In this document: positions 31,176 through 61,330 of the stretch, in pieces | Numbering within the stretch: the first letter of the stretch is position 1 | Layout: each line of letters begins with the position of its first letter | NCBI GenBank assembly: GCA_014191195.1 | Contig: BJGZ01000003.1 | Coordinates: forward strand, 62,001 to 126,000 | DNA length: 64,000 nt | Origin: Chlorobiota bacterium | GTDB taxonomy: Bacteria; Bacteroidota; Ignavibacteria; Kapaibacteriales; UBA961 | Reading direction: 5' to 3' | Notes under the pieces: model-generated | Databases searched by the model: none | What the model saw: only the letters and a program-made list of their open reading frames with translations | Told to the model about the DNA's origin: nothing | Made by a program: the position numbers and the translations under genes

Positions 31176-31247
31176 GACATATTTGAAAATCTATTCCTTC
31201 AAAGCTTGCCCTATCCTTTATTCATTCATTATCTTTTCTATATTGTT

Positions 31248-34200
31248 ATGAATACATTCTTAAAAAGACTTCACGCATTTTCTATACTATCTATTCATGC
31301 ATATTTCATTATTAGTATATGCGTCTGCTCTCATACTATCCAAGCACAACCAAAGATTGCTACTATAATACCTGATATTTGTTCTCCTGGTATGAATATA
31401 TATCTAGAAATTATGGCTCCTAGTGATTCAATTGGTGCATTTGGGAAATCAGGGTTTTCTCTAAATAATCCAAATAGTAGAGTAATTGTTCGTGCTTTAA
31501 GGGATACAGATACATCAAAAGTAATTTTTAGTCCTTGTATTATAAGTTGGGATGGACGCCTGATTTCTACTCATGTATTTGTACCGCCCGTAGAATTAGG
31601 CGGACCTAATCCTCCAACAGATTTATGGAATCAAAATCCAATTGAATTTCATATTCCAATTCAGGTTATCGTTAATGGTATTTCATCTAGCATTGATACC
31701 TTATATATAGTTCAACCTTTTGGGTTTAATGATAGAGGTGGTGATATTTTCAATAGAGTGTTAGGTGCTGGTGGTTGGGGTAGGCGATCAAGAAAAGGAG
31801 CTATGATAGTTACAAATATGGCATTACCGGCTAATTCAATTATTACAGTTGATACGTCTGATTGTGATCCATATCTACTAGGAAATCAAGGCTATTTACC
31901 ATTTATTCTAATATCCAAAACAGCAATCAATGGAAGAAATTCAATAATATCAGTAAATGCATCAAATCAACATGCTGGTCCTGGTGGTGGAGGCGGAGCT
32001 GGTGCATTTTGTGATGTTGTAAGTACAAATAGTAATGGTGGTAATGGTTATACCGGAGGAGCGCCTGGTGGCAGAAATGGTGCTAAATTACCTTTTATAA
32101 GTGATTTTTATACCAAACCAGGATTAGGTACCGCTCCTTCATTGAATAATCGATCTGGAGGTTCTTCAATTACCGGAGTTGTTGGTGGAGAAATAAGAGC
32201 TTTTGAGGGAGGTGGAGGTGGCACTGGACATCCATTTGGAAGTTCTGGTACAGGCTGGAATGGAACAAATAATGATATTTTTGGAGGAAATGGTGGTGGC
32301 TCATCACCTTCAGATCGATTATATGGAGGTGGTGGTGGTTTTAGAACTCCTGGCGTATCCTCTAATGCTATAAATGGTGGTAATGCACATGGCAATACAT
32401 GTGTAGTGCCTATAGCTGGTGGGAGTGGTGGTGCTACTGGAAATCCTCAACTTGGATTTGGTACAATTACCTGTTCTGGTAGAGGCGGAGGTGGTGGTGG
32501 CACAATTCGTTTATATGCAAATGAAATACGAGACTTGAAAATAAATGCTAAAGGTGCAGATGGAGAAGCAAATAATCCTAATGGTGGTTCTGGAAGTGGT
32601 GGACATATAGGCATAGGAGCTAAGAATTCTCTTAGTAATATTATCCCTGATATTAGTGGTGGAACCAGTATTCCTGCAGGTGGTGAAGGAAGATTTAGAT
32701 TTGATGCAGCCACATATTCAGATACAACTTTTTATATGTATCAAAAAACTAATTCTATAAGCCAACCTTATTTTAGAGGGCCATCTACTGGTGAAAAGAA
32801 TCTTGTTATCAGACAAGGTATAACGCTACTCCCCTTTTCTGGTGGTTCTAATGAAATTACATTTTATATTAAACCAGATTCTGGCATTTGGAGAGTATTA
32901 GATGTTCCAAGGAACAATTACTCTTATAAAGGGGATAGCATTGGAATAGATTTTTCTGATATGATAAACTATCCTGAAAAACTATTTTATATAGTTGCTT
33001 TACAAGATAATTCCATGTTTTCTTCAAAAAATGCATTTTCTCAAGAACCATCTTTTGTCATGTCTCAAGCTGGAGCTAATATCTTGTATTTAAGCGATCA
33101 GCCAATTATTAAGTCCGATAGTGCCGTTGATATTCAACCAGCTTTGATATGTCCTACAGATAAAAGATTTGACACCTTAACAATTTACAATGTTGGAGGG
33201 GCAGATCTTGAACTTAATTCAGTGTATTTAAAGAAAAACAATACAGGAATAACATTAAATGATATTCCAGGTAATGGTACAATCATTAAACCAAAAGATT
33301 CATTAAGACTATATTTCACTTTTGAAAACCCTATAACTAAAGGTGATATATATGATACTTTATATATTTTTCATAATGATTTAGGGAAAAATAAAAATCC
33401 TTGGATTATACCAATTCACGGCAAAAAAGATGAGATTGCCTTAGCATATTTAGATGGAAATAAAAGTACGATTATTAAAGAGTTAAAGTTTGGTAAGGGT
33501 TGTATTGGATCTACTTTATTTAATGAAGCTGCTATTTTAAATAGGTCAAGCTTTCAATTACAAAAAAGTGATATTCAATTAATCAATAGAAGTAAAGGTA
33601 TTTTTTCTTTTACATTACAAAACACCTTTATTGATTCTAATTCAAGCGGTTTGATTCAAGTTATGTATACAAGTTCTTCTTTAGGAGCTGATACTGCTTT
33701 CATTATATCTTCGGTTGGAAAATGTAATTATGCTGATACACTTTTATTGATTGGCGAAGGTATCGAAACTAATCTCAGCTTAGATAAATCGATACTTTCT
33801 TTTCCAGCCATTCCAGTAGGACAATCAAATATCCAATCAATTACATTGAAAAACAAAGGAACAAGCAATGCCTATATTGCTTCTGCTCCACTTCCAAATC
33901 CCCCATTTTCTCTGTTCAAAACAACTCCATTTACTCCTATTCTTCTTTTGTCAGGTGATTCTATCATATGTGAATATCAATATTCACCAAAGAAAAAAGG
34001 GAGTGATTCTACTACTATACAATTCATCTCTTTAAATACATTGGGTGCATGTAATGATACTGTTTTTTGTTTATTAAAAGGTTCATCATCTTTACCTCAA
34101 CTTACTGTATCATTACCTATTATAGATCTTATAGATCCTTCAGAATCTACATTTACTTTTCCGATTAAGTATACCATTAACCCCAAAGATTCCATTAAAG

Positions 34201-34811
34201 CAAATATGGTTCTTAACTTTTTAGTTGATAGCCGTTTATTTTATCCTAAATCTTGTACTAAAGGTATATTGAAATCATGGATTCTTAATACATATAATCG
34301 TATTGTTTCTTTAGAATTACAAGATGAGTGGATTTCACCAAAGGATTCTGTGCTTACTGAAATAAGTGGTATAGTTCAATTAAGTGAGATTGAATCAACA
34401 ACATTAATTTGGGATACTATTTATTGGAAAACAATGCTTCAATCAGTAGATAGTTCTATCAATGGTTCTTTAAAGATCTCGATTTGTCAGAAAGGTGGAG
34501 ACAGATTAGTAAAACATTCATCTACATTATTTACTGCAACAATATCTCCAAATCCAACTCATATTGATGGAATTCATTCATTAGAATGCAATTTCCCACT
34601 TATTGAATTAGGAACATATTCTATTACCGTTCTAGATCAAACTGGAAAAAAGATTTGGCAAGAATATCTGTATGAACATACTATTAATATGATTGGACAT
34701 ACAATGTCAGTTAATATTCCTATGAATAATGTTAGTTCAGGGGTATATTCTGTTATTGTTTCATCCCCAACGCAGAGTACTGTTGAACGTTGTATTTTAT
34801 TGTCACATTAA
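31248..34811 (+). CDS. Giant Gly-rich secreted surface protein with ASH-like domains and T9SS-type tail
   Basis: I chose the ATG at 31248 (1187 residues, MNTFLKRLHAF, signal peptide ending at IQAQ); upstream in-frame codons lack an ATG. After about 160 residues of beta-rich sequence comes a Gly-rich region (~residues 235-475) with many GGGGG runs spaced by 30-60 residues. ASPM/SPD-2/hydin-like Ig modules follow (LTIYNVGGADLELNSV and ILSFPAIPVGQSNIQSITLKNKG). It ends with a type IX secretion-like tail (ATISPNPTHIDG, TYSITVLDQTGKKIW, VSSGVYSVIVSS). It is likely exported and anchored outside. It resembles the Gly-rich protein at 55796. Function unknown; adhesin or sheath is a guess. Confidence 0.8.
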   Translation: MNTFLKRLHAFSILSIHAYFIISICVCSHTIQAQPKIATIIPDICSPGMNIYLEIMAPSDSIGAFGKSGFSLNNPNSRVIVRALRDTDTSKVIFSPCIISWDGRLISTHVFVPPVELGGPNPPTDLWNQNPIEFHIPIQVIVNGISSSIDTLYIVQPFGFNDRGGDIFNRVLGAGGWGRRSRKGAMIVTNMALPANSIITVDTSDCDPYLLGNQGYLPFILISKTAINGRNSIISVNASNQHAGPGGGGGAGAFCDVVSTNSNGGNGYTGGAPGGRNGAKLPFISDFYTKPGLGTAPSLNNRSGGSSITGVVGGEIRAFEGGGGGTGHPFGSSGTGWNGTNNDIFGGNGGGSSPSDRLYGGGGGFRTPGVSSNAINGGNAHGNTCVVPIAGGSGGATGNPQLGFGTITCSGRGGGGGGTIRLYANEIRDLKINAKGADGEANNPNGGSGSGGHIGIGAKNSLSNIIPDISGGTSIPAGGEGRFRFDAATYSDTTFYMYQKTNSISQPYFRGPSTGEKNLVIRQGITLLPFSGGSNEITFYIKPDSGIWRVLDVPRNNYSYKGDSIGIDFSDMINYPEKLFYIVALQDNSMFSSKNAFSQEPSFVMSQAGANILYLSDQPIIKSDSAVDIQPALICPTDKRFDTLTIYNVGGADLELNSVYLKKNNTGITLNDIPGNGTIIKPKDSLRLYFTFENPITKGDIYDTLYIFHNDLGKNKNPWIIPIHGKKDEIALAYLDGNKSTIIKELKFGKGCIGSTLFNEAAILNRSSFQLQKSDIQLINRSKGIFSFTLQNTFIDSNSSGLIQVMYTSSSLGADTAFIISSVGKCNYADTLLLIGEGIETNLSLDKSILSFPAIPVGQSNIQSITLKNKGTSNAYIASAPLPNPPFSLFKTTPFTPILLLSGDSIICEYQYSPKKKGSDSTTIQFISLNTLGACNDTVFCLLKGSSSLPQLTVSLPIIDLIDPSESTFTFPIKYTINPKDSIKANMVLNFLVDSRLFYPKSCTKGILKSWILNTYNRIVSLELQDEWISPKDSVLTEISGIVQLSEIESTTLIWDTIYWKTMLQSVDSSINGSLKISICQKGGDRLVKHSSTLFTATISPNPTHIDGIHSLECNFPLIELGTYSITVLDQTGKKIWQEYLYEHTINMIGHTMSVNIPMNNVSSGVYSVIVSSPTQSTVERCILLSH

Positions 34812-48633: not shown

Positions 48634-49521
48634 CTATGAGAAGCGTCCAACAAATAGTCTTGTAGATAACCAATGCTTTAAGGCTATCATTATTTTGTGA
48701 ATAGAAGAGACAGTTATCTTCTTCATGCTAAAAACATTATAATCATTCAATTCTATCTTTTCTAATAAGCGATAATAAATTGCATCCATAATTTCAGCGG
48801 CTAACATTGTATTTCTTTCATCTGGACGCAGTGCTGTCCTAGCTTTATGATAGTATTCTCTTGCCCTTTGAGTTTCATATTGCATTAAAGCTATAAAGTT
48901 TTCATTATACACTTCATTCATTAAGTCTTTTTCTGAATATTTGAATTTATCCATATCTTCTTTTGGTAAATAGATATATCCTTTATCTTTATCAGCTTTA
49001 AGATCTCTTAATATATTAGTTAATTGTAATGCATAGCCTAAATTGACAGCATATTGCTTTGTCTCTTCATATTTGTAACCAAAAATCTCAATACACATCA
49101 ATCCAACAACGCCAGCTACGCCATAGCAATATTCTTTCAATTCTGCGAATGTTGTATATCGATATTGATACAAATCCCTTTCGCAACCATCAATCAATGT
49201 TAAAAAATATTGTTTTGGAATATCAAAACGCTTTATAACTTTACTTAAAGGGTAGAAATATGGCTGCAAATTCTTATTTGCATAAATCTTTTCGATTTCA
49301 TTACGCCAGTTGGATAAAATTCCTTTCTTCTTATTTATTATGTCTACATTCTTGGATGGATATTCATCAACTATATCATCTATTTCTCGACAAAAAGCAT
49401 AGACTGTATTAATTGCTTTTCTTTCATCTTTGGGTAAAAAAGTAAACGAATAGTAAAAACTCGTTTTTGATTGATGAGGAGCAATCTTAATATCTGATTC
49501 TATGTGTTCAGTATCTTTCAT
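48634..49521 (-). CDS. hpnD: Presqualene diphosphate synthase-like (HpnD)
   Basis: A 295-residue all-helical prenyl-synthase. The two metal-binding motifs are DDIVDE (after AFCREI) and LRDLKADKDKGYIYLP; YYSFTFLPKDERKAINTVYAFCREID is typical of HpnD. HpnD joins two farnesyl diphosphates into presqualene diphosphate, which HpnC and HpnE turn into squalene for hopanoids or sterols. hpnC lies six bases upstream on the same strand, supporting the name. hpnE is not in the window, so the pathway must finish elsewhere. A squalene or carotenoid role remains possible. Confidence 0.88.
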   Translation of the reverse strand: MKDTEHIESDIKIAPHQSKTSFYYSFTFLPKDERKAINTVYAFCREIDDIVDEYPSKNVDIINKKKGILSNWRNEIEKIYANKNLQPYFYPLSKVIKRFDIPKQYFLTLIDGCERDLYQYRYTTFAELKEYCYGVAGVVGLMCIEIFGYKYEETKQYAVNLGYALQLTNILRDLKADKDKGYIYLPKEDMDKFKYSEKDLMNEVYNENFIALMQYETQRAREYYHKARTALRPDERNTMLAAEIMDAIYYRLLEKIELNDYNVFSMKKITVSSIHKIMIALKHWLSTRLFVGRFS

Positions 49522-49527
49522 AATGAT

Positions 49528-50472
49528 TTAGGTATATGATCTTAATACTCGAATTAATGCTTTACAGGCCGTAACTAGGATTCTATGAACAGACAATGAT
49601 ATTTTTTGTGATAATAATACTTTTCTATGCGCTCTAGTTATCTCTAAAATAGCATTTCCTCCCTCAATAATAAGTGCTATTTCACATCTTAATCTAAAAG
49701 AGTCTAAATGACATATTAAATGAGAACCTTTGTCAAATAGTTCTTTAGTCTTCATGTACATCATATCAAATGCATGATTAAATACTTCATCAGATATGAT
49801 GTCATCAGTGTGCAAAGATACACCATTTAAAAAATCTTTCGGAATATATGTTCTCCCATTTATCTTATCTATATATATGTCTTGCAAGAAGTTTGCCAAT
49901 TGTAATCCTGTACATATATAATTTGATAATTCTATGGTAGTTTCATTCTTATTTTTATGTAATTGTAAAATGATATCTCCTACAGGATTTGCTGAATGTG
50001 CACAATAATCATATACATCTTCCATAGACTTTGGTTGCGTAAAGACACAGTCTTGTTTAAAAGCTTTTAATAATTGTAAAAATGGTGCAAGACTAATCTT
50101 TGTTTGACAGAACATATCTTGCAAGGCTATCCACAATGGATTATCTCCTGTATATTGTTGTGAAAAACATATTGTTATATGATTCTCCATCATCTGGAGA
50201 TAATATAATTGCTTTTCTACATCAATTTCTAAAGATCCTTCATCGGCTATATCATCTGCGATTCTACTAAATGAATAGATTGCTGCAGTATACTTTCTTA
50301 TGTGCTGTGGTATACATAAGGAAGCTACAGGAAAATTCTCATAATGCATCTTTGTTATATTCAAACAAAAAACATACGATTCTTGTATAGAACTAACCCT
50401 AAATACTGGTGAACTATATTCAACCAGATCAATCAATTCTTGCAGGCTAAACCAATGATGTATTTTTTGCAT
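49528..50472 (-). CDS. hpnC: Squalene synthase-like (HpnC), start likely after the terminator
   Basis: Isoprenoid synthase of 314 residues from the ATG at 50472. Motifs are HYENFPVAS, AAIYSFSRIADDIADE (first metal site) and LANFLQDIYIDKINGRTYIP (second), matching HpnC, which hydrolyses presqualene diphosphate to hydroxysqualene. Two longer starts (50502, 50493) are in frame, but both fall inside a strong terminator hairpin belonging to the upstream foldase gene. I therefore prefer 50472, six bases past its T-tract. It is followed six bases later by hpnD. How it is transcribed is discussed under findings. Confidence 0.86.
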   Translation of the reverse strand: MQKIHHWFSLQELIDLVEYSSPVFRVSSIQESYVFCLNITKMHYENFPVASLCIPQHIRKYTAAIYSFSRIADDIADEGSLEIDVEKQLYYLQMMENHITICFSQQYTGDNPLWIALQDMFCQTKISLAPFLQLLKAFKQDCVFTQPKSMEDVYDYCAHSANPVGDIILQLHKNKNETTIELSNYICTGLQLANFLQDIYIDKINGRTYIPKDFLNGVSLHTDDIISDEVFNHAFDMMYMKTKELFDKGSHLICHLDSFRLRCEIALIIEGGNAILEITRAHRKVLLSQKISLSVHRILVTACKALIRVLRSYT

Positions 50473-50477
50473 AAAGT

Positions 50478-50510
50478 AAAAAAAAACCCGCATGAAAATC
50501 ATACGGGTTT
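50478..50510 (-). terminator. Strong Rho-independent terminator after the PpiD-like gene
   Basis: Read on the minus strand, AAACCCG, then after one mismatch TGAT, pair with ATCA and CGGGTTT around a 3-base loop, followed by a run of T's. It lies 21 bases past the stop codon at 50531. Confidence 0.9.
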
Positions 50511-54843: not shown

Positions 54844-55775
54844 AACAGTATCTATCTGCATTAGCTAAGATAAATGTAGTACTTATACTATTAGTAATAC
54901 TTGCTGGAAGTGTTGTTCGATCTACTCAATCCGGTATGGGTTGTCCTGATTGGCCTAAATGTTATGGATTATTTATTCCACCAACACATATTGATCAATT
55001 ACCACAGAATTATAAACAGATATATGCTCATCAAGGTATTCCAGCAGAAGATTTTGATGCGGTGAAAACGTGGATTGAATATATAAATAGATTATTGGGT
55101 GCAATTCTTGGCATTACTGTCTTTTTACAATTATTATCTTCTTTATATCATTGGAAACAAGATAAAACCATAACACTATTAAGTATTGCTATTTTTTTAT
55201 TAACAGGTTTTCAGGGATGGCTTGGTGCATTAGTTGTTGCTTCAAATTTAGCACCCTTAAAAATTACTATTCATATGCTAATGGCTATGGCCTTGTTATT
55301 ATTGGGTACACATATCGCCTGGAAGCCAAAAATTATATCTAGTATTGTTTCTAATAAAAAAATATCATACTTCATCGGACTTAGCATAGTAGCTGTGATT
55401 ATTCAGATTTTGCTTGGTACACAAGTAAGACAAGAGATCGATCAATTAGCAAAGGCACTCAATTATTCTCAAAGAGATATTTGGATTAGCAATGTGTCTT
55501 CAATATTCTCAATACATAGATCCTTTGCTCATGTGATTCTTCTGATACATGCATATATTATCTATATAATTTTTAAAACTAAAACAGATCTATCTTCCAT
55601 TAAGACAATAACTTATATGATAGCATTTACTCTATTTTTAGAAATTAGTGCAGGAATCATATTGAACTATATGGATATGCCTGCAAGTATTCAACCTATT
55701 CATCTATTACTTGCTTCTGTTCTTTTGTGCTTGGATTATATTCTGTTTTTAAATAGTAAGCCTGTAAAAGCCTAA
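54840..55775 (+). CDS. ctaA: Haem A synthase (CtaA/Cox15)
   Basis: Converts haem O to haem A for aa3-type cytochrome oxidase in the inner membrane. The 311-residue polytopic protein has the family start LAGSVVRSTQSGMGCPDWPKCYG, WIEYINRLLGAILG and TGFQGWLGALVVASNLAPLKITIHMLMA, with His residues of the haem sites, and about eight membrane helices. The ATGA overlap with the M18 gene indicates co-transcription without a clear functional link. Oxidase genes are not in the window. It implies aerobic respiration. Confidence 0.94.
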   Translation: MKQYLSALAKINVVLILLVILAGSVVRSTQSGMGCPDWPKCYGLFIPPTHIDQLPQNYKQIYAHQGIPAEDFDAVKTWIEYINRLLGAILGITVFLQLLSSLYHWKQDKTITLLSIAIFLLTGFQGWLGALVVASNLAPLKITIHMLMAMALLLLGTHIAWKPKIISSIVSNKKISYFIGLSIVAVIIQILLGTQVRQEIDQLAKALNYSQRDIWISNVSSIFSIHRSFAHVILLIHAYIIYIIFKTKTDLSSIKTITYMIAFTLFLEISAGIILNYMDMPASIQPIHLLLASVLLCLDYILFLNSKPVKA

Positions 55776-55795
55776 TCAATATTTCTGGAAAATAA

Positions 55796-58700
55796 ATGTA
55801 TACATGTAGAAGAGATCTTTATAACAAATGCATCATACTGTTCATATGTTTTTATGCATGTATATCTAGTATCAATGCTCAGAATATTAGGGATAATTGG
55901 TTTTTTGGAAATAGGGCTGCTATACATTTTTCTAATACAAGTCCCAAAGCACTAAACAGCTCTGCAATGGTGGCACCAGAAGGTTGTGCAACACTCAATG
56001 ATAGTTCAGGTACATTATTATGCTATACAGATGGCAATGCGATTTGGAATGCAAATCATATCATCATAAATGGCACTAATTTTCTTGGGGGAAATCCTTC
56101 GGTTGCCCAAAATATTCAAATCATTCCATATCCTGGAAAACTATCTCAATATGTATTTGTTTATATAAAAGGATCTGCAGAAAATCCGCCGATGAGTCTT
56201 TGGTATACTGTTTATGATTCCATTTCAACAAATAATGCTATTCAAATTATTCCACCTTCGCTGTTATATGATAATATCACAGAAAAGTTAGTTGTTATAG
56301 AAAATAATATAGGGAATGGTTATTGGATTTTTACTCATGGTTTTGCTGATAATAATTATTTAGCGTTTCAGCTAACAAATACTGGTATATCTAAAAGTCC
56401 TATAATATCTACTGGTAGTTATAACTTTAAAACAAGTAAGTGGAATGCAAGCGGCGTAATGAAATGTTCTCATAATAGTAAAAAACTTGCAACATGTATT
56501 AGAGGAGAATCAGATACAAGTTTTGTAGAATTAACAGATATTAATATTAGTAATGGTAAAGTAAGTAATCCAGTTTTAATTCCTTTTCCAATGTTAACCT
56601 ATGGAGCCGAGTTTTCTAGAGATAATAAGTATTTATATATAAGCTGTGGACTATCAACTAAAAAAGGGATTTTATATCAAGTAGATATAGGATCTAGTAC
56701 TTTTAATAAAACAGAAGTTTATAATTCCCCCACAGAATGGTTTGGACAATTGCAATTAGGTAATGATTGTAAAATATATTTAGCAAAACAATCCTCTGAG
56801 TCCTTAGGTACAATAACTAATCCTTCTGGTACAGGACCAAGCTGTGGCTTTTTGATAAGTGGATTGATAGTGTCTCCCGGCACTTCTACATTAGGCTTAC
56901 CTACTTTTATTCAAACAAATTCCTCAATCATTTCAAATTCTATTCGATATTCTTCTGACAATATTCTTGATAGTACTCAGTTCTCAATACAATATCCAAA
57001 TGCAACAAATTATTATTGGGATTTTGGAGATCCTTCCTCTGGTTCACAAAATGTTTCTAGCGAGAATCAGCCAAAACATGTATTCAATAAAGCAGGCTCC
57101 TATTATGTAAAAGTATATCTAAGTGGACCATGTGGATATGATACATTATATCAATTACTTGAAATTAAAAGCAAAAAGAGTCTTATTGTTAATGTGAATT
57201 CTGCAGTATTAGACATTGTATCAAATACATGCAATTCACACATAATAGTTAAAGATTCCTGGCCATTTATAAAGGGCGATTTGGTTCTGCTTATTCAGAT
57301 AAAAGGCGCTGATATTGATTCTTTATATCCACAAAAAGAAGATGGTTATCCACATCAACTTAATGCTGCAGGACTATTTGAATATGCTAGAGTTAGTTCT
57401 GTTAATGGTAATACCATATATCTTCAACAAAGATTACAACAATCGTGGAATGACACATTATCATGGAAACAAACTTCTGTTCAATTAGTAAAAGTTTTCG
57501 AAAAAGATAATTATACATTAAATCAATCTGTTAATTGCGCGGTATATGATGGAGAAAAAGGAGGAATAATCTCTATTTATGTACATGATACTCTTACATT
57601 ATACTCAAATATATCTGCTAATGGCGTAGGTTTTAGAAGCCCTCCTTATAATAATTCAATTACTATTTCTGAATATTCGAATGACTCTTTTATCACTTCT
57701 CTATCACAATATGGTTCTAGAAAAGGAGAATCAATCATAGCAGATTCCTTTATTGGTGAATATACAAAAGGTAGAATGAATCTAGCCACAGCCGGTGGTG
57801 GCGGAAATGCCCTCAATGCCGGAGGAGGAGGAGGGGCACAATTTGGTAATGGTGGTAATGGTGGATTTGGTTGGAAGGATACTGTCAATAAATCAAATAA
57901 TATTAATGAGTTAAGTGCAGGATTAGGTGGAGTAAATGGTTATATATCACAAAATGTTATAGTATCATTTTATTCACAATCTTTTGGACAAAGAGCTTTT
58001 CTTGGTGGTGGTGGTGGTGCTGGTTTTTCACCTATTAACACTGCATCTGGACAACCCACAAGCGGTGTTGGTGGAGGTATAATATTTGTAAGAGCTAAGA
58101 CTATTATTGTAAAAAATCAGAATGTTTTGATTGAAGCTAATGGAAATGCAGGATACCCTTCAAACAAAGGAGGAGCCTCTGGTGGTGGTGGTGGTGGCTA
58201 TATCCATATTCAAGCAGATACTATCATCGGGAATATTCAATGTTCTGTTCAAGGTGGTAATGGAGGCGATAATAGATCTTCTAAAGACTTAGGACAATTT
58301 GCCCCAGGTGGTGGTGGTGGTGGTGGTATCATTGTAACAAATACATCAAGAAATGCTTTTTCTTTGAAGCCAAACTTTAATGGTGGAAAAAAAGGTATAT
58401 GCACACAATTTGCTGATTCATTTGGAGCACAAGACGGATATTCTGGAACTATACATTCAAGTGCTGATAAATTTGACTTAAGCTTACAAAATAATTCTGG
58501 TTATTCTCCTACCCTTCCAAATGAATATTATATCATTGATTCTATCCATAAAAGTAATGATAGAATAACTCTAAAGAAACCCTATCAATTATGTATGGGA
58601 AGTAAAATCCTATTAATGCAATTAAATACAAGCGATAGCTTTATAATTAATGCACAAGGAAAACAATATGGCGAACTTTCTGACAGAGGCACTGCCGGTA

Positions 58701-60031
58701 ATTTTGAATTTGCAAGAGTTAAATCCATTGAAGGAAATGATATTATTTTGGAACAAACTGTTGTACGTTCATATAGAAATTATGTAAACAAATTTGGCAT
58801 TACAGTTTCCTCCTTTGTAGTTAATGTACCCGAATACGAAAATTTAACAATACAGCAGCCATTAACAGGAAATTCGTGGCTAGGTAATAATGGTAATGGT
58901 GGTGTACTAGCAATAAGTGTTAAAAATACATTGTCATTACAAGCTCCTATCCATATGGATGGCAAAGGTTTTAGAGGAGGAATAGGACTCAAAAGTCCAA
59001 TATGTGCTGATTCTCATATTATTGATCTATTTGGAGTTAAAGACTCTTCTTTATATGCTCAAAAAGGTGAAGGTATAAGTAATATTGGCTGGAATATAAC
59101 CAGCAATGTACATTATGCTGGAAAAGGTGCTATTGTAAATGGTGGTGGCGGTGGAAATAATCATAATGGTGGTGGTGGTGGTGGTTCTAATTTGGGATGT
59201 GGTGGAAATGGAGGTTGGGGCTGGAATTCGATAACGATTAATGACAATAAACTTTCTGGAGGAATAGGTGGATGGCCTTTCTCTATAGCTATGATCAAGA
59301 ATGAGCGTGTTATTTTTATGGGTGGTGGTGGCGGTGCAGGCCATACAAATGATTTGCATGGAAGTAATGGAGCCAATGGTGGTGGTATTATTATCATACA
59401 AGCCAAAACTATTCAAGGAAATAATCAGACTATTTCTGCTAATGGATTACATGCAAAGGATGCCGATTATGATGGTTCCGGTGGAGGTGGTGCAGCAGGT
59501 TCTATAATATTAGATTGCCAAGATATACAATCACATCTCTTCTTAGAAACCATGGGTGGTAATGGAGGAAACACGAATATACATTTTGATGGTCCTGGTG
59601 GAGGTGGAGGTGGTGGATTTATTGGATTTACCTCACAAACATCGCCAAACAATACTAGTGTCAATGTAAATGGTGGTTATTCTGGAAGACATCTTTTTGA
59701 CAGATATGGTGCCGAAGATGGATGTTCTGGAACAGTAGTTTCTGATATTGTTTTATACGGTGATAAACCAACAAATATTAATATTCAAAATGATGATATA
59801 TCCTCTATTCAGATATTACAAACTGATAATAGCATTCAAGTGGTAAATCTACCAATACATAGCTCTATCGAATGTTTTGATATATTAGGAAAAGGGTGGC
59901 TTCTACATAGAAATATTCAATCAAGAGATTTTAATATTTCTACAGAGCAATTTCCCAATGGAGTATACTATCTTGTTATTTCACATAATGGCTTGATACA
60001 TAATTCACATCCATTTTGCATCATTAAGTAA
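55796..60031 (+). CDS. Giant Gly-rich surface protein: propeller-like start, PKD domain, two Gly-rich modules, T9SS-type tail
   Basis: 1411 residues with a signal peptide (to INAQ). The first ~360 residues have NWFFGNRAAIHFSN, EGCATLNDSSGTLLCYTDGNAIWN, a type common in Bacteroidetes surface proteins. A PKD domain follows (~400-460; YWDFGDPSSGSQNVSS then HVFNKAGSYYVKVYL). Then come two tandem ~430-residue modules (~460-900, ~910-1330), each with a haem-free beta-rich start, FExARVxSxxGN, and GGGGG runs. It ends with a T9SS-like tail (SSIECFDILGKGW, FPNGVYYLVISHNG). Likely exported and surface-attached; function unknown. It may be polycistronic with the preceding ctaA (20-base gap). Confidence 0.83.
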   Translation: MYTCRRDLYNKCIILFICFYACISSINAQNIRDNWFFGNRAAIHFSNTSPKALNSSAMVAPEGCATLNDSSGTLLCYTDGNAIWNANHIIINGTNFLGGNPSVAQNIQIIPYPGKLSQYVFVYIKGSAENPPMSLWYTVYDSISTNNAIQIIPPSLLYDNITEKLVVIENNIGNGYWIFTHGFADNNYLAFQLTNTGISKSPIISTGSYNFKTSKWNASGVMKCSHNSKKLATCIRGESDTSFVELTDINISNGKVSNPVLIPFPMLTYGAEFSRDNKYLYISCGLSTKKGILYQVDIGSSTFNKTEVYNSPTEWFGQLQLGNDCKIYLAKQSSESLGTITNPSGTGPSCGFLISGLIVSPGTSTLGLPTFIQTNSSIISNSIRYSSDNILDSTQFSIQYPNATNYYWDFGDPSSGSQNVSSENQPKHVFNKAGSYYVKVYLSGPCGYDTLYQLLEIKSKKSLIVNVNSAVLDIVSNTCNSHIIVKDSWPFIKGDLVLLIQIKGADIDSLYPQKEDGYPHQLNAAGLFEYARVSSVNGNTIYLQQRLQQSWNDTLSWKQTSVQLVKVFEKDNYTLNQSVNCAVYDGEKGGIISIYVHDTLTLYSNISANGVGFRSPPYNNSITISEYSNDSFITSLSQYGSRKGESIIADSFIGEYTKGRMNLATAGGGGNALNAGGGGGAQFGNGGNGGFGWKDTVNKSNNINELSAGLGGVNGYISQNVIVSFYSQSFGQRAFLGGGGGAGFSPINTASGQPTSGVGGGIIFVRAKTIIVKNQNVLIEANGNAGYPSNKGGASGGGGGGYIHIQADTIIGNIQCSVQGGNGGDNRSSKDLGQFAPGGGGGGGIIVTNTSRNAFSLKPNFNGGKKGICTQFADSFGAQDGYSGTIHSSADKFDLSLQNNSGYSPTLPNEYYIIDSIHKSNDRITLKKPYQLCMGSKILLMQLNTSDSFIINAQGKQYGELSDRGTAGNFEFARVKSIEGNDIILEQTVVRSYRNYVNKFGITVSSFVVNVPEYENLTIQQPLTGNSWLGNNGNGGVLAISVKNTLSLQAPIHMDGKGFRGGIGLKSPICADSHIIDLFGVKDSSLYAQKGEGISNIGWNITSNVHYAGKGAIVNGGGGGNNHNGGGGGGSNLGCGGNGGWGWNSITINDNKLSGGIGGWPFSIAMIKNERVIFMGGGGGAGHTNDLHGSNGANGGGIIIIQAKTIQGNNQTISANGLHAKDADYDGSGGGGAAGSIILDCQDIQSHLFLETMGGNGGNTNIHFDGPGGGGGGGFIGFTSQTSPNNTSVNVNGGYSGRHLFDRYGAEDGCSGTVVSDIVLYGDKPTNINIQNDDISSIQILQTDNSIQVVNLPIHSSIECFDILGKGWLLHRNIQSRDFNISTEQFPNGVYYLVISHNGLIHNSHPFCIIK
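57190..58490 (+). repeat. First of two tandem internal Gly-rich modules
   Basis: In-frame coding repeat, about 430 codons, beginning near SLIVNVNSAVLDIV. It contains LFEYARVSSVNGNTIYL, GGIISIYVHDTLTL, GNGGNGGFGW and AFLGGGGGAGF, and ends near GYSGTIHSS. It is matched segment by segment by the next copy. Confidence 0.7.
58525..59790 (+). repeat. Second of two tandem internal Gly-rich modules
   Basis: Matches the first copy in order: NFEFARVKSIEGNDIIL, GGVLAISVKNTLSL, GCGGNGGWGW, IFMGGGGGAGH, GCSGTVVSDI. Divergence outside the Gly runs shows an old duplication rather than recent copying. Confidence 0.7.
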
Positions 60032-60036
60032 GATTT

Positions 60037-60885
60037 ATGAAAGAGACAATACACGGAAACAAAAAAAGAATCAAATTTATATCAGAATGCTTGAACAGAT
60101 TTAAACCTGTCTCTGTATTAGATATTGGCTGTGGAAATGGTATTTTTTTAACAATTCCCTTAGCACAACATTTCGATAACATTACTTTTTGTGGTATAGA
60201 TTCAGATGAACCAACTATAGCATTAGCAAAAAAACATAATGAATTAAATAATTTATCATATTATACAAATGATGAGTTTTTACATCATCACAAATATGAT
60301 TTAATCATAGCCTCTGAAGTTATCGAACATGTAGAAGAACCGCATCAGTTTTTACTGTGGACAAAAACTCATCTGTCTGAACATGGTCATATTATCATCA
60401 CAACTCCTAATGGTTTTGGTTGTTTCGAATTCACTACATTTTTTGAAACAATTCTAGACTTATCAGGAATAATGAAATTGTTAAGTTCATTACCTTTTTT
60501 ATCTTCATTAAAAGTTGGTAATTCATATACAAATAACGATATACAAGAAAAGCAACATGATACATTAGCAATAAGCCCGCATGTTAATTTCTTTAGCTAT
60601 CGAAAATTAAAAAAGGTATTTGCAGAAAGCGGATTAATTGAAAAAATGTATAAACCACGATCAATGTTCGGAGGTTTAGGATTTAATCAATTGTTTAGAT
60701 CGGAGTCTGTGCTAGAATGGAATGCATCAATTTCAGATTCGATGCCAAGACAAATAGTGAGTGGCTGGATGTTTGTGTTAAAAAATAATCCAGATTTTTC
60801 ACCTAATACAACAACTGTATACAAGCGTAGTCTAAATGAACAATTTCGCCGATGGTTAACTGCTAAGCGTTGGAATATTATATAA
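60037..60885 (+). CDS. Class I SAM-dependent methyltransferase
   Basis: 282 residues. The Rossmann-like SAM site is VLDIGCGNGIFLTI, followed by FCGIDSDEPTIALAKKH, ASEVIEHVEEPHQFL and ITTPNGFG, the pattern of broad small-molecule and sugar-/lipid-type methyltransferases. The C-terminal third (SISDSMPRQIVSGWMFVLKN) is family-variable. The substrate is unknown. It lies five bases after the Gly-rich surface-protein gene, so a role in surface-structure decoration is a weak guess. It overlaps the convergent peroxiredoxin gene by eight bases. Confidence 0.82.
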   Translation: MKETIHGNKKRIKFISECLNRFKPVSVLDIGCGNGIFLTIPLAQHFDNITFCGIDSDEPTIALAKKHNELNNLSYYTNDEFLHHHKYDLIIASEVIEHVEEPHQFLLWTKTHLSEHGHIIITTPNGFGCFEFTTFFETILDLSGIMKLLSSLPFLSSLKVGNSYTNNDIQEKQHDTLAISPHVNFFSYRKLKKVFAESGLIEKMYKPRSMFGGLGFNQLFRSESVLEWNASISDSMPRQIVSGWMFVLKNNPDFSPNTTTVYKRSLNEQFRRWLTAKRWNII

Positions 60886-61330
60886 TATCAAACACTCTTA
60901 ATGCTTCATTTACATGGTTATCAGCAGAAAATGAAGAGTTAAATATATACTTGATGATACCATGTTCATCAATACAAAAAGTAACCCTGCCTGGCAGCAA
61001 TCCAAATAAACCATTAGGAATGCCCATAATTTCTCTTACTTTACTGGATTCATCACTTAATAGTGGATAAGGTAAAGAATTTTTCTTAATAAAAGATTGA
61101 TGCGAATCCATAGAATCTGAGCTTATACCTATCACTTGAATATTATGCTTGATAAACTCTTGATAATGATCCCTAAAAGAGCAAGCTTCCTTAGTACATA
61201 AAAAAGTATCATCTTTAGGATAGAAGAACAAGACAGTCTTTTTGCCATAAAAAGAAGAACTATAAACACATTCGCCAGTTTGATTTTGCAAACTAAACTC
61301 TGGGATTGTCATCCCTATACTTATTTTCAT
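60878..61330 (-). CDS. bcp: Peroxiredoxin, BCP type
   Basis: 150 residues, thioredoxin fold. The peroxidatic site is FFYPKDDTFLCTKEACSFRD: Pro38, Thr42 and Cys45 give PxxxTxxC, and Cys50 in EAC is the likely resolving Cys, as in E. coli BCP. The usual PGC is FLC here, a small departure. ISSDSMDSHQSFIKK and the LLPGRVTFCIDEHG strand fit. It reduces hydroperoxides using thioredoxin. It lies two bases after the dolichol-kinase-like gene on the same strand. Confidence 0.93.
   Translation of the reverse strand: MKISIGMTIPEFSLQNQTGECVYSSSFYGKKTVLFFYPKDDTFLCTKEACSFRDHYQEFIKHNIQVIGISSDSMDSHQSFIKKNSLPYPLLSDESSKVREIMGIPNGLFGLLPGRVTFCIDEHGIIKYIFNSSFSADNHVNEALRVFDII

Follow-up and report, generated by a model that had tools for sequence, protein, structure and literature searches.

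The 64,000-nucleotide stretch of DNA analyzed here (the window) is part of contig C3 (BJGZ01000003.1, positions 62,001 to 126,000) of a Chlorobiota bacterium genome of 2,413,275 bases in 29 contigs, and it contains an open reading frame (ORF) for a protein with two tandem copies, m1 and m2, of a glycine (Gly)-rich module that is catalogued under the name AgmC. We hold, with moderate confidence, that this protein is exported by the Sec pathway followed by the type IX secretion system (T9SS), and that its two modules serve as rigid binding or spacer units. This reading is built on the domain order, duplication, conservation and spread of the modules, which were observed, on a fold that was predicted, and on secretion, display and binding, which we infer. 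The first-pass annotation had called the protein giant, but with a length of 1411 residues this is overstated.

The internal duplication is real. Each module has two parts, a Gly-poor first part of 107-108 residues (5-6% Gly), and a remainder that contains 21-24% Gly with runs of up to seven. The four motif blocks on which the duplication had originally been proposed were all found in both copies with their order kept: LFEYARVSSVNGN in m1 and NFEFARVKSIEGN in m2 for the first block, GGIISIYVHDTLTL and GGVLAISVKNTLSL for the second, GNGGFGW and GNGGWGW for the third, and AFLGGGGGAG and IFMGGGGGAG for the fourth. The Smith-Waterman score between m1 and m2 was 491, compared to 74±12 (maximum 115) for full shuffles and 182±22 (maximum 228) for shuffles in which the Gly residues were held in place, and when all Gly residues were masked the score was 112, compared to 33±4.5 (maximum 56) for the shuffles (n=200 in each case). 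The Gly-masked and Gly-in-place controls rule out that Gly composition alone explains the similarity. A composition-adjusted BLASTP comparison between the two modules gave an expectation value (E) of 7e-10 over 251 residues with 34% identity, and this alignment included the Gly-poor first part. A contrary output came from a self-BLASTP of the whole protein, which gave the main diagonal only, both with and without SEG, whereas the isolated modules do align. Runs of at least three Gly residues start at residues 667, 676, 737, 759, 796 and 838 in m1, and at 1116, 1125, 1176, 1195, 1229 and 1268 in m2, the same number in the same order. The Gly tracts thus recur with a conserved spacing, as had been noticed before, but this spacing is not exactly fixed (9/61/22/37/42 in m1 versus 9/51/19/34/39 in m2).

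A related protein in a genome of another genus (G007) also carries two modules, and its second module is 45.1% identical to m2, while the first is 33.7% identical to m2. For m1 the identity was 36.5% to the first G007 module and 34.3% to the second. In a module tree of 59 rows, m2 grouped with the second G007 module in a clade of five (support 100/97), and m1 grouped with the first, with weak support (90/61). A recent duplication is ruled out, since m2 is closer to the second G007 module than to m1 (34%), and the tree concurs. By this comparison the two copies are old, and because the copy-wise G007 identities and the tree agree, the tandem arrangement probably predates the split between the window genus and the G007 genus.

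The whole protein matched the NCBIfam family NF047640 (gliding_AgmC_N, 'AgmC') at E 4.9e-109 with 365 bits in two stretches, and the modules are homologous to this family across most of the profile, spanning positions 41-409 and 45-411 of 412 and leaving the first 40 positions uncovered in both. However, singly the modules scored 194.5 and 181.5 bits (196.6 for m2 in a second search), below the curated single-domain cut-off of 275 bits. The 'equivalog' threshold is passed only through the sum of two sub-threshold copies, and because it is passed by carrying two copies, the AgmC name should not be transferred as a function. The protein further differs from NF047640 in having an N-terminal domain and a PKD domain ahead of its two copies and a probable T9SS tail behind them. 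Among 10 named genomes, a single module exceeded 275 bits only in a deltaproteobacterial one (334.3 bits), and the Myxococcales genome among them gave partial matches only (best 140.7 bits). NF047640 matched all 43 members of our main alignment (A1), although this count is partly circular, as A1 was collected with this profile. Alignment A1 comprises 41 modules plus the two window copies; modules with fewer than 300 profile positions or with E >1e-10 were excluded, as were loci L001, L003 and L004 (the window itself), and L032, L033, L040 and L041 have no row. Two other alignments, A2 and A3, comprise the two window copies and the 16 loci from the scan of genome contigs (see below). Locus L096 did not enter the analysis. 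Judged by these profile matches, the module is not new: it is already catalogued and widespread, which had been missed, and the AgmC gliding name is poorly justified for the protein described here. Of note, the possibility of passing the NF047640 cut-off by summing two modules (57179-59758) is a potential source of misnaming. No Pfam-A match was found within either module at E up to 1, and across the 43 aligned modules only one gave a match, which was single, weak and unrelated. With the module profile as query, no PDB sequence matched at E ≤1. Among the publications listed for AgmC, for polyglycine folds and for Gly-rich surface proteins of the T9SS or of gliding, none describes the module, judged by title or abstract opening.

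Of 61 near-relative genomes, 30 had module matches, as did 34 of 296 genomes sampled from the phylum, a set that overlaps with the 61 (own genome included in both counts); the 14 control genomes gave none. A scan of genome contigs using the two modules as query yielded no relatives among 29 stretches, and the same type of scan with the alignment as query confirmed at least 16 named loci, which include Saprospiraceae, Flavobacterium, Carboxylicivirga, Calothrix, Photobacterium damselae and two Myxococcota. Judged by a shared ORF, two modules occur together in 4 of the 61 near-relative genomes (G000, G007, G021 and G029, the last being a partial ORF at a contig end), and among the matches listed, all 16 named loci contained one module each in the stretch that was read. 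The paired repeat stands for the protein in the window, but in other loci the module is usually single, which the earlier description had missed. A third module is present in the same genome (C7:30490-31593, 209.7 bits) in a 1101-residue ORF with an Ig-like domain. Within the window genus, the gene is present in the own genome and in the congener G004, whose homologue is 92.8% identical over the first 540 residues, where its contig ends inside module 1. The P. damselae locus (L056), the sole gammaproteobacterial one among the matches listed, has its module inside a 7234-residue ORF, with 11 GEVED stretches in the 3769 residues scanned.

The protein had been annotated as T9SS-type, and it is indeed a probable T9SS cargo. 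Its C-terminal tail matched TIGR04183 with 17.7 bits or, in another search, 22.9 bits (23.6 with frame neighbours), for a cut-off of 23, and Por_Secre_tail PF18962 with 16.1 bits versus a cut-off of 27. In the own genome, 110 tail-profile matches were found at E up to 1, a level at which 13 of the 14 control genomes also matched, and many of the 110 were above the cut-off, which was reached in one of the 14 control genomes. SprA, the T9SS component that was searched for, is present in the own genome above its cut-off (877.1 bits with frame neighbours). Among the co-domains that Pfam named in a set of 14 module proteins (13 from other loci and one from the same genome) are PKD, Ig, cadherin, Calx-beta and GEVED domains, SprB repeats and T9SS tails, as well as DUF11 and a weak DUF7107. 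Because such co-domains are typical of surface proteins, our best guess at the role is an adhesin-like one. The protein would probably be exported via Sec and then T9SS, and be either displayed on the surface or released.

AlphaFold predicted m2 (together with 17 other rows) with a mean predicted local distance difference test score (pLDDT) of 77.7 and a predicted template modelling score (pTM) of 0.84, and the Gly-rich part of m1, modelled alone, with values of 74.6 and 0.80, respectively. In these models a small beta-barrel is followed by the Gly-rich part with beta-hairpins approximately 39 residues apart (strand starts in the last part at 294, 332 and 371 in the m2 model, and at 194, 234, 277 and 317 in the m1 model), and the hydrophobic autocorrelation across relatives for m2 residues 285-417 peaked at 39 residues (0.59, compared to 0.41 or less in 99% of the shuffles). 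For this last part, the pLDDT per block was 81-95 in the m2 model (residues 291-417), and in the m1 model it was 70-95 apart from an end block of 56, but in the Gly-rich centre the pLDDT was below 50 over several stretches. The earlier proposal of a regular folded unit holds on these grounds for most of the module, for which disorder is rejected, but not for the low-pLDDT centre. When the models were compared to known structures with VIA-align, the barrel aligned over 76 residues with a phage tail tube (Z 10.0, root-mean-square deviation (rmsd) 1.9), and the Gly-rich part of m1 with the snow flea antifreeze protein 3bog, a polyglycine-II bundle, which was covered completely (81/81 residues on model residues 210-318, rmsd 2.5) with a Z of only 5.2, ranking third of 5 chains aligned. 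Unlike 3bog, the module has beta-hairpins between its Gly tracts. Going by the models, the Gly-rich part is likely, though unproven, to be a polyglycine-II scaffold.

Two other systems are comparable in principle. A study on the Salmonella phage S16 describes the gp38 polyglycine sandwich as Gly-rich motifs with variable segments between them and a beta scaffold (PMC6851490). The likeness to the module lies in this combination of scaffold and variable segments only; gp38 is a phage tail-fibre tip that has no sequence match to the module and does not occur in the fold lists. The mycobacterial PE_PGRS proteins were modelled, according to one report, as polyglycine-II sandwiches in which Gly tracts form a packed scaffold and not disorder (PMC10216338). 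They have many GGX triplets in variable number, whereas the module has six tracts at conserved places, together with a barrel and hairpins. A further paper (PMC13413566) concerns another, beta-solenoid antifreeze-like protein. ALK, gp38 and PE_PGRS are absent from the PDB fold lists, and this absence was not counted against them.

Over the 43 aligned modules, the mean entropy was 1.05 bits in the Gly-motif columns, 2.61 in the other Gly-rich columns and 2.16 in the barrel, the low first value being partly built in, as the Gly-motif columns were chosen as Gly-rich in m2. In the 14 closest pairs, the identity was always highest in the Gly motifs (0.79-0.92 versus 0.48-0.79 for the rest), and in 12 of them the barrel was more conserved than the rest of the Gly-rich part. 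We propose that the conserved Gly tracts are packed as a scaffold, probably as polyglycine-II helices beside the short beta-hairpins that recur every ~39 residues, and that the variable segments between the tracts would be the likeliest contact surface. Each module would then consist of a small beta-barrel leading into a bundle rich in glycine, within a protein made up of the N-terminal domain, the PKD domain as spacer, the two modules in tandem and the sorting tail at the C-terminus. In such an adhesin-like protein the module would most likely be a rigid unit for binding or spacing. Several points weigh against this, apart from the choice of the Gly-motif columns. The low conservation between the Gly tracts also fits a plain lack of constraint, no ligand or binding site was identified, the match to the sorting tail is marginal, the centre of the Gly-rich part has low pLDDT values, Foldseek found no match in the PDB at E ≤0.001 with either model, and the match to the snow flea antifreeze protein is weak (Z <8, 5 chains aligned), its 30% identity probably being mostly Gly. 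A wider and more tentative possibility is that the module represents a new fold class, in which a beta-barrel leads into a mixed beta-hairpin/polyglycine-II bundle, and that it would be used as an interchangeable recognition unit across Bacteroidota, Ignavibacteriota and Myxococcota, and sporadically elsewhere, with a Gly scaffold and variable binding loops as a counterpart of the S16 gp38 tip. If true, the AgmC name hides a recognition unit. The module is common in secreted proteins of one phylum, yet without a sequence match in Pfam-A or the PDB, and its structure would tell whether long Gly tracts of bacterial surface proteins are packed polyglycine-II scaffolds.

The window encodes a second Gly-rich, probable T9SS protein (ORF 31206-34811, previously positioned at 31248), and its similarity to both copies had led to the suggestion of a family of surface polymers. 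Matches to the 558 residues at its N-terminus were found in 31 of 41 near-relative genomes (own included); they are mostly 43-54% identical and single in 27 of these 31, and the closest congener, G004 (85% complete), gave none. The first 850 residues gave no Pfam match. The mean column identity of this family was 51% (20 rows), versus 34% for the module. Unmasked, the protein scored 138 and 157 against m1 and m2, with full shuffles at 91±13 (maximum 146 and 136), but these scores lie inside the range of the Gly-in-place shuffles (123±14 and 133±15, maximum 178 and 180). Masking of Gly left scores of 34 and 30, versus 30±4 and 28±3.5 for the shuffles. The module profile did not match the 31206 protein at E up to 10. 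An hhalign comparison of the two families gave a probability of 90% and a score of 57.9 (58.2 on rerun) over 60-99 profile columns; the reversed profiles used as controls scored 35.5 and 34.2, and none of 20 column shuffles scored more than 36.0. What remains of the similarity is therefore a local profile-profile match, as the sequence scores are within the Gly-in-place shuffles. By these comparisons the 31206 protein is a separate family that has a few Gly-rich rungs in common with the module, and no common architecture; unlike in the module, no barrel match was seen. With a family of its own and only this limited number of columns in common, it does not bear out the suggested polymer family, and no sign of polymerisation, sheath or fibre turned up, in analyses that were not aimed at polymerisation.

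That the modules are nevertheless building blocks of a structural polymer, be it a sheath, a fibre or an S-layer-like coat, would agree with the regular internal repeat, with the two-module ORFs in 4/61 near-relative genomes, and with the presence in the window of the 31206 protein, likewise Gly-rich and a probable T9SS cargo, which has matches in 31/41 genomes. We regard this as improbable, since the 31206 family is separate, the 16 named loci among the matches listed have a single module in the stretch read, and the gene pair of module protein and adjoining methyltransferase is missing from the same place in the three congeners other than G004 that were read there, which would be odd for a coat protein. 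A gliding-motility surface protein, as the NCBIfam name implies, is suggested by the 365-bit NF047640 match of the whole protein and by a Flavobacteriales relative (L058) whose module protein has SprB repeats and a CHU_C tail. However, each module alone stays below 275 bits, only one deltaproteobacterial single module among the 10 named genomes is above it, and a search of the own genome for GldJ, of Bacteroidota-type gliding, gave no match, although it lacked a positive control, as none of the control genomes passed the cut-off. A gliding role is thus doubtful, and we consider it very unlikely.

A relationship to beta-helix tailspikes and GH110 enzymes, which would make the module a carbohydrate-binding or -acting one, seems rather unlikely. 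VIA-align did find GH110B and blood-group-B galactosidase chains (Z 7.5-8.0, 71-78 residues), the latter of which we take to be GH110 as well, in addition to K1 capsule lyase (Z 8.4, 94 residues, rmsd 5.1) and the tailspike LKA1 gp49 (4ru4; Z 8.3, 182 residues, rmsd 7.4), but most of these rows cover residues 1-108, a common arrangement that V-ATPase and phage tail proteins in the same list share, and the Gly-rich part alone gave no such fold match. A viral origin gained little: of 599 pattern stretches from viral contigs, none was confirmed as a relative. A PHROG of unknown function matched both copies weakly (E 6e-5 and 2.9e-6), and Foldseek against viral predicted structures gave 8 matches at E ≤0.001, the best being an Ostreococcus virus protein (7.7e-9); two of the 8 are named collagen-related, and the query TM-scores were at most 0.48.

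Table 1. Features of the module protein and the adjoining gene (window coordinates)
Feature	Position	Strand	Basis
1411-residue protein with both modules	55796..60031	+	ORF call
Probable Sec signal peptide, residues 1-28	55796..55879	+	By eye: basic start, hydrophobic core, SSINA-QN
N-terminal domain, residues 29-390	55880..56965	+	Homologues in near-relative genomes
PKD domain, residues 396-447	56981..57136	+	PF00801, E 3.4e-7, 30.6 bits (gathering score 23.5)
Module copy 1 (m1), residues 462-892	57179..58471	+	Profile matches
m1 barrel part	57179-57499	+	
m1 Gly-rich part	57500-58471	+	Predicted alone
Module copy 2 (m2), residues 905-1321	58508..59758	+	Profile matches; predicted whole
m2 barrel part	58508-58831	+	
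m2 Gly-rich part	58832-59758	+	
T9SS type A C-terminal sorting domain, marginal match	59834..59992	+	TIGR04183, PF18962
Methyltransferase, adjoins protein gene	60037..60885	+	PF13489, E 2e-19

The N-terminal domain listed in Table 1 is presumably beta-propeller-like. Using residues 1-460 as query, matches were obtained in 25 of 41 genomes, own included, some of which cover the PKD end only (e.g., G019), and in G022 a 1292-residue ORF combines the same N-terminal part with one module. Within the genus, the PF13489 methyltransferase had close matches only in the own genome and, as a 37-residue contig-end fragment, in G004. Where the own genome has the surface protein and this methyltransferase (locus 55775-61330), the CtaA and AhpC genes of G001, G003 and G005 flank another methyltransferase-like ORF, which by its look we take to encode an FkbM-type methyltransferase. 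The CtaA-AhpC place was read in these three genomes, and G002 (no CtaA match) and G006 (CtaA match split over two contigs) were left out. Elsewhere in the window, two adjacent squalene/phytoene synthase genes are located on the minus strand at 48634-50502; when each was matched crosswise to the G004 orthologues, the two proved 27-29% alike.

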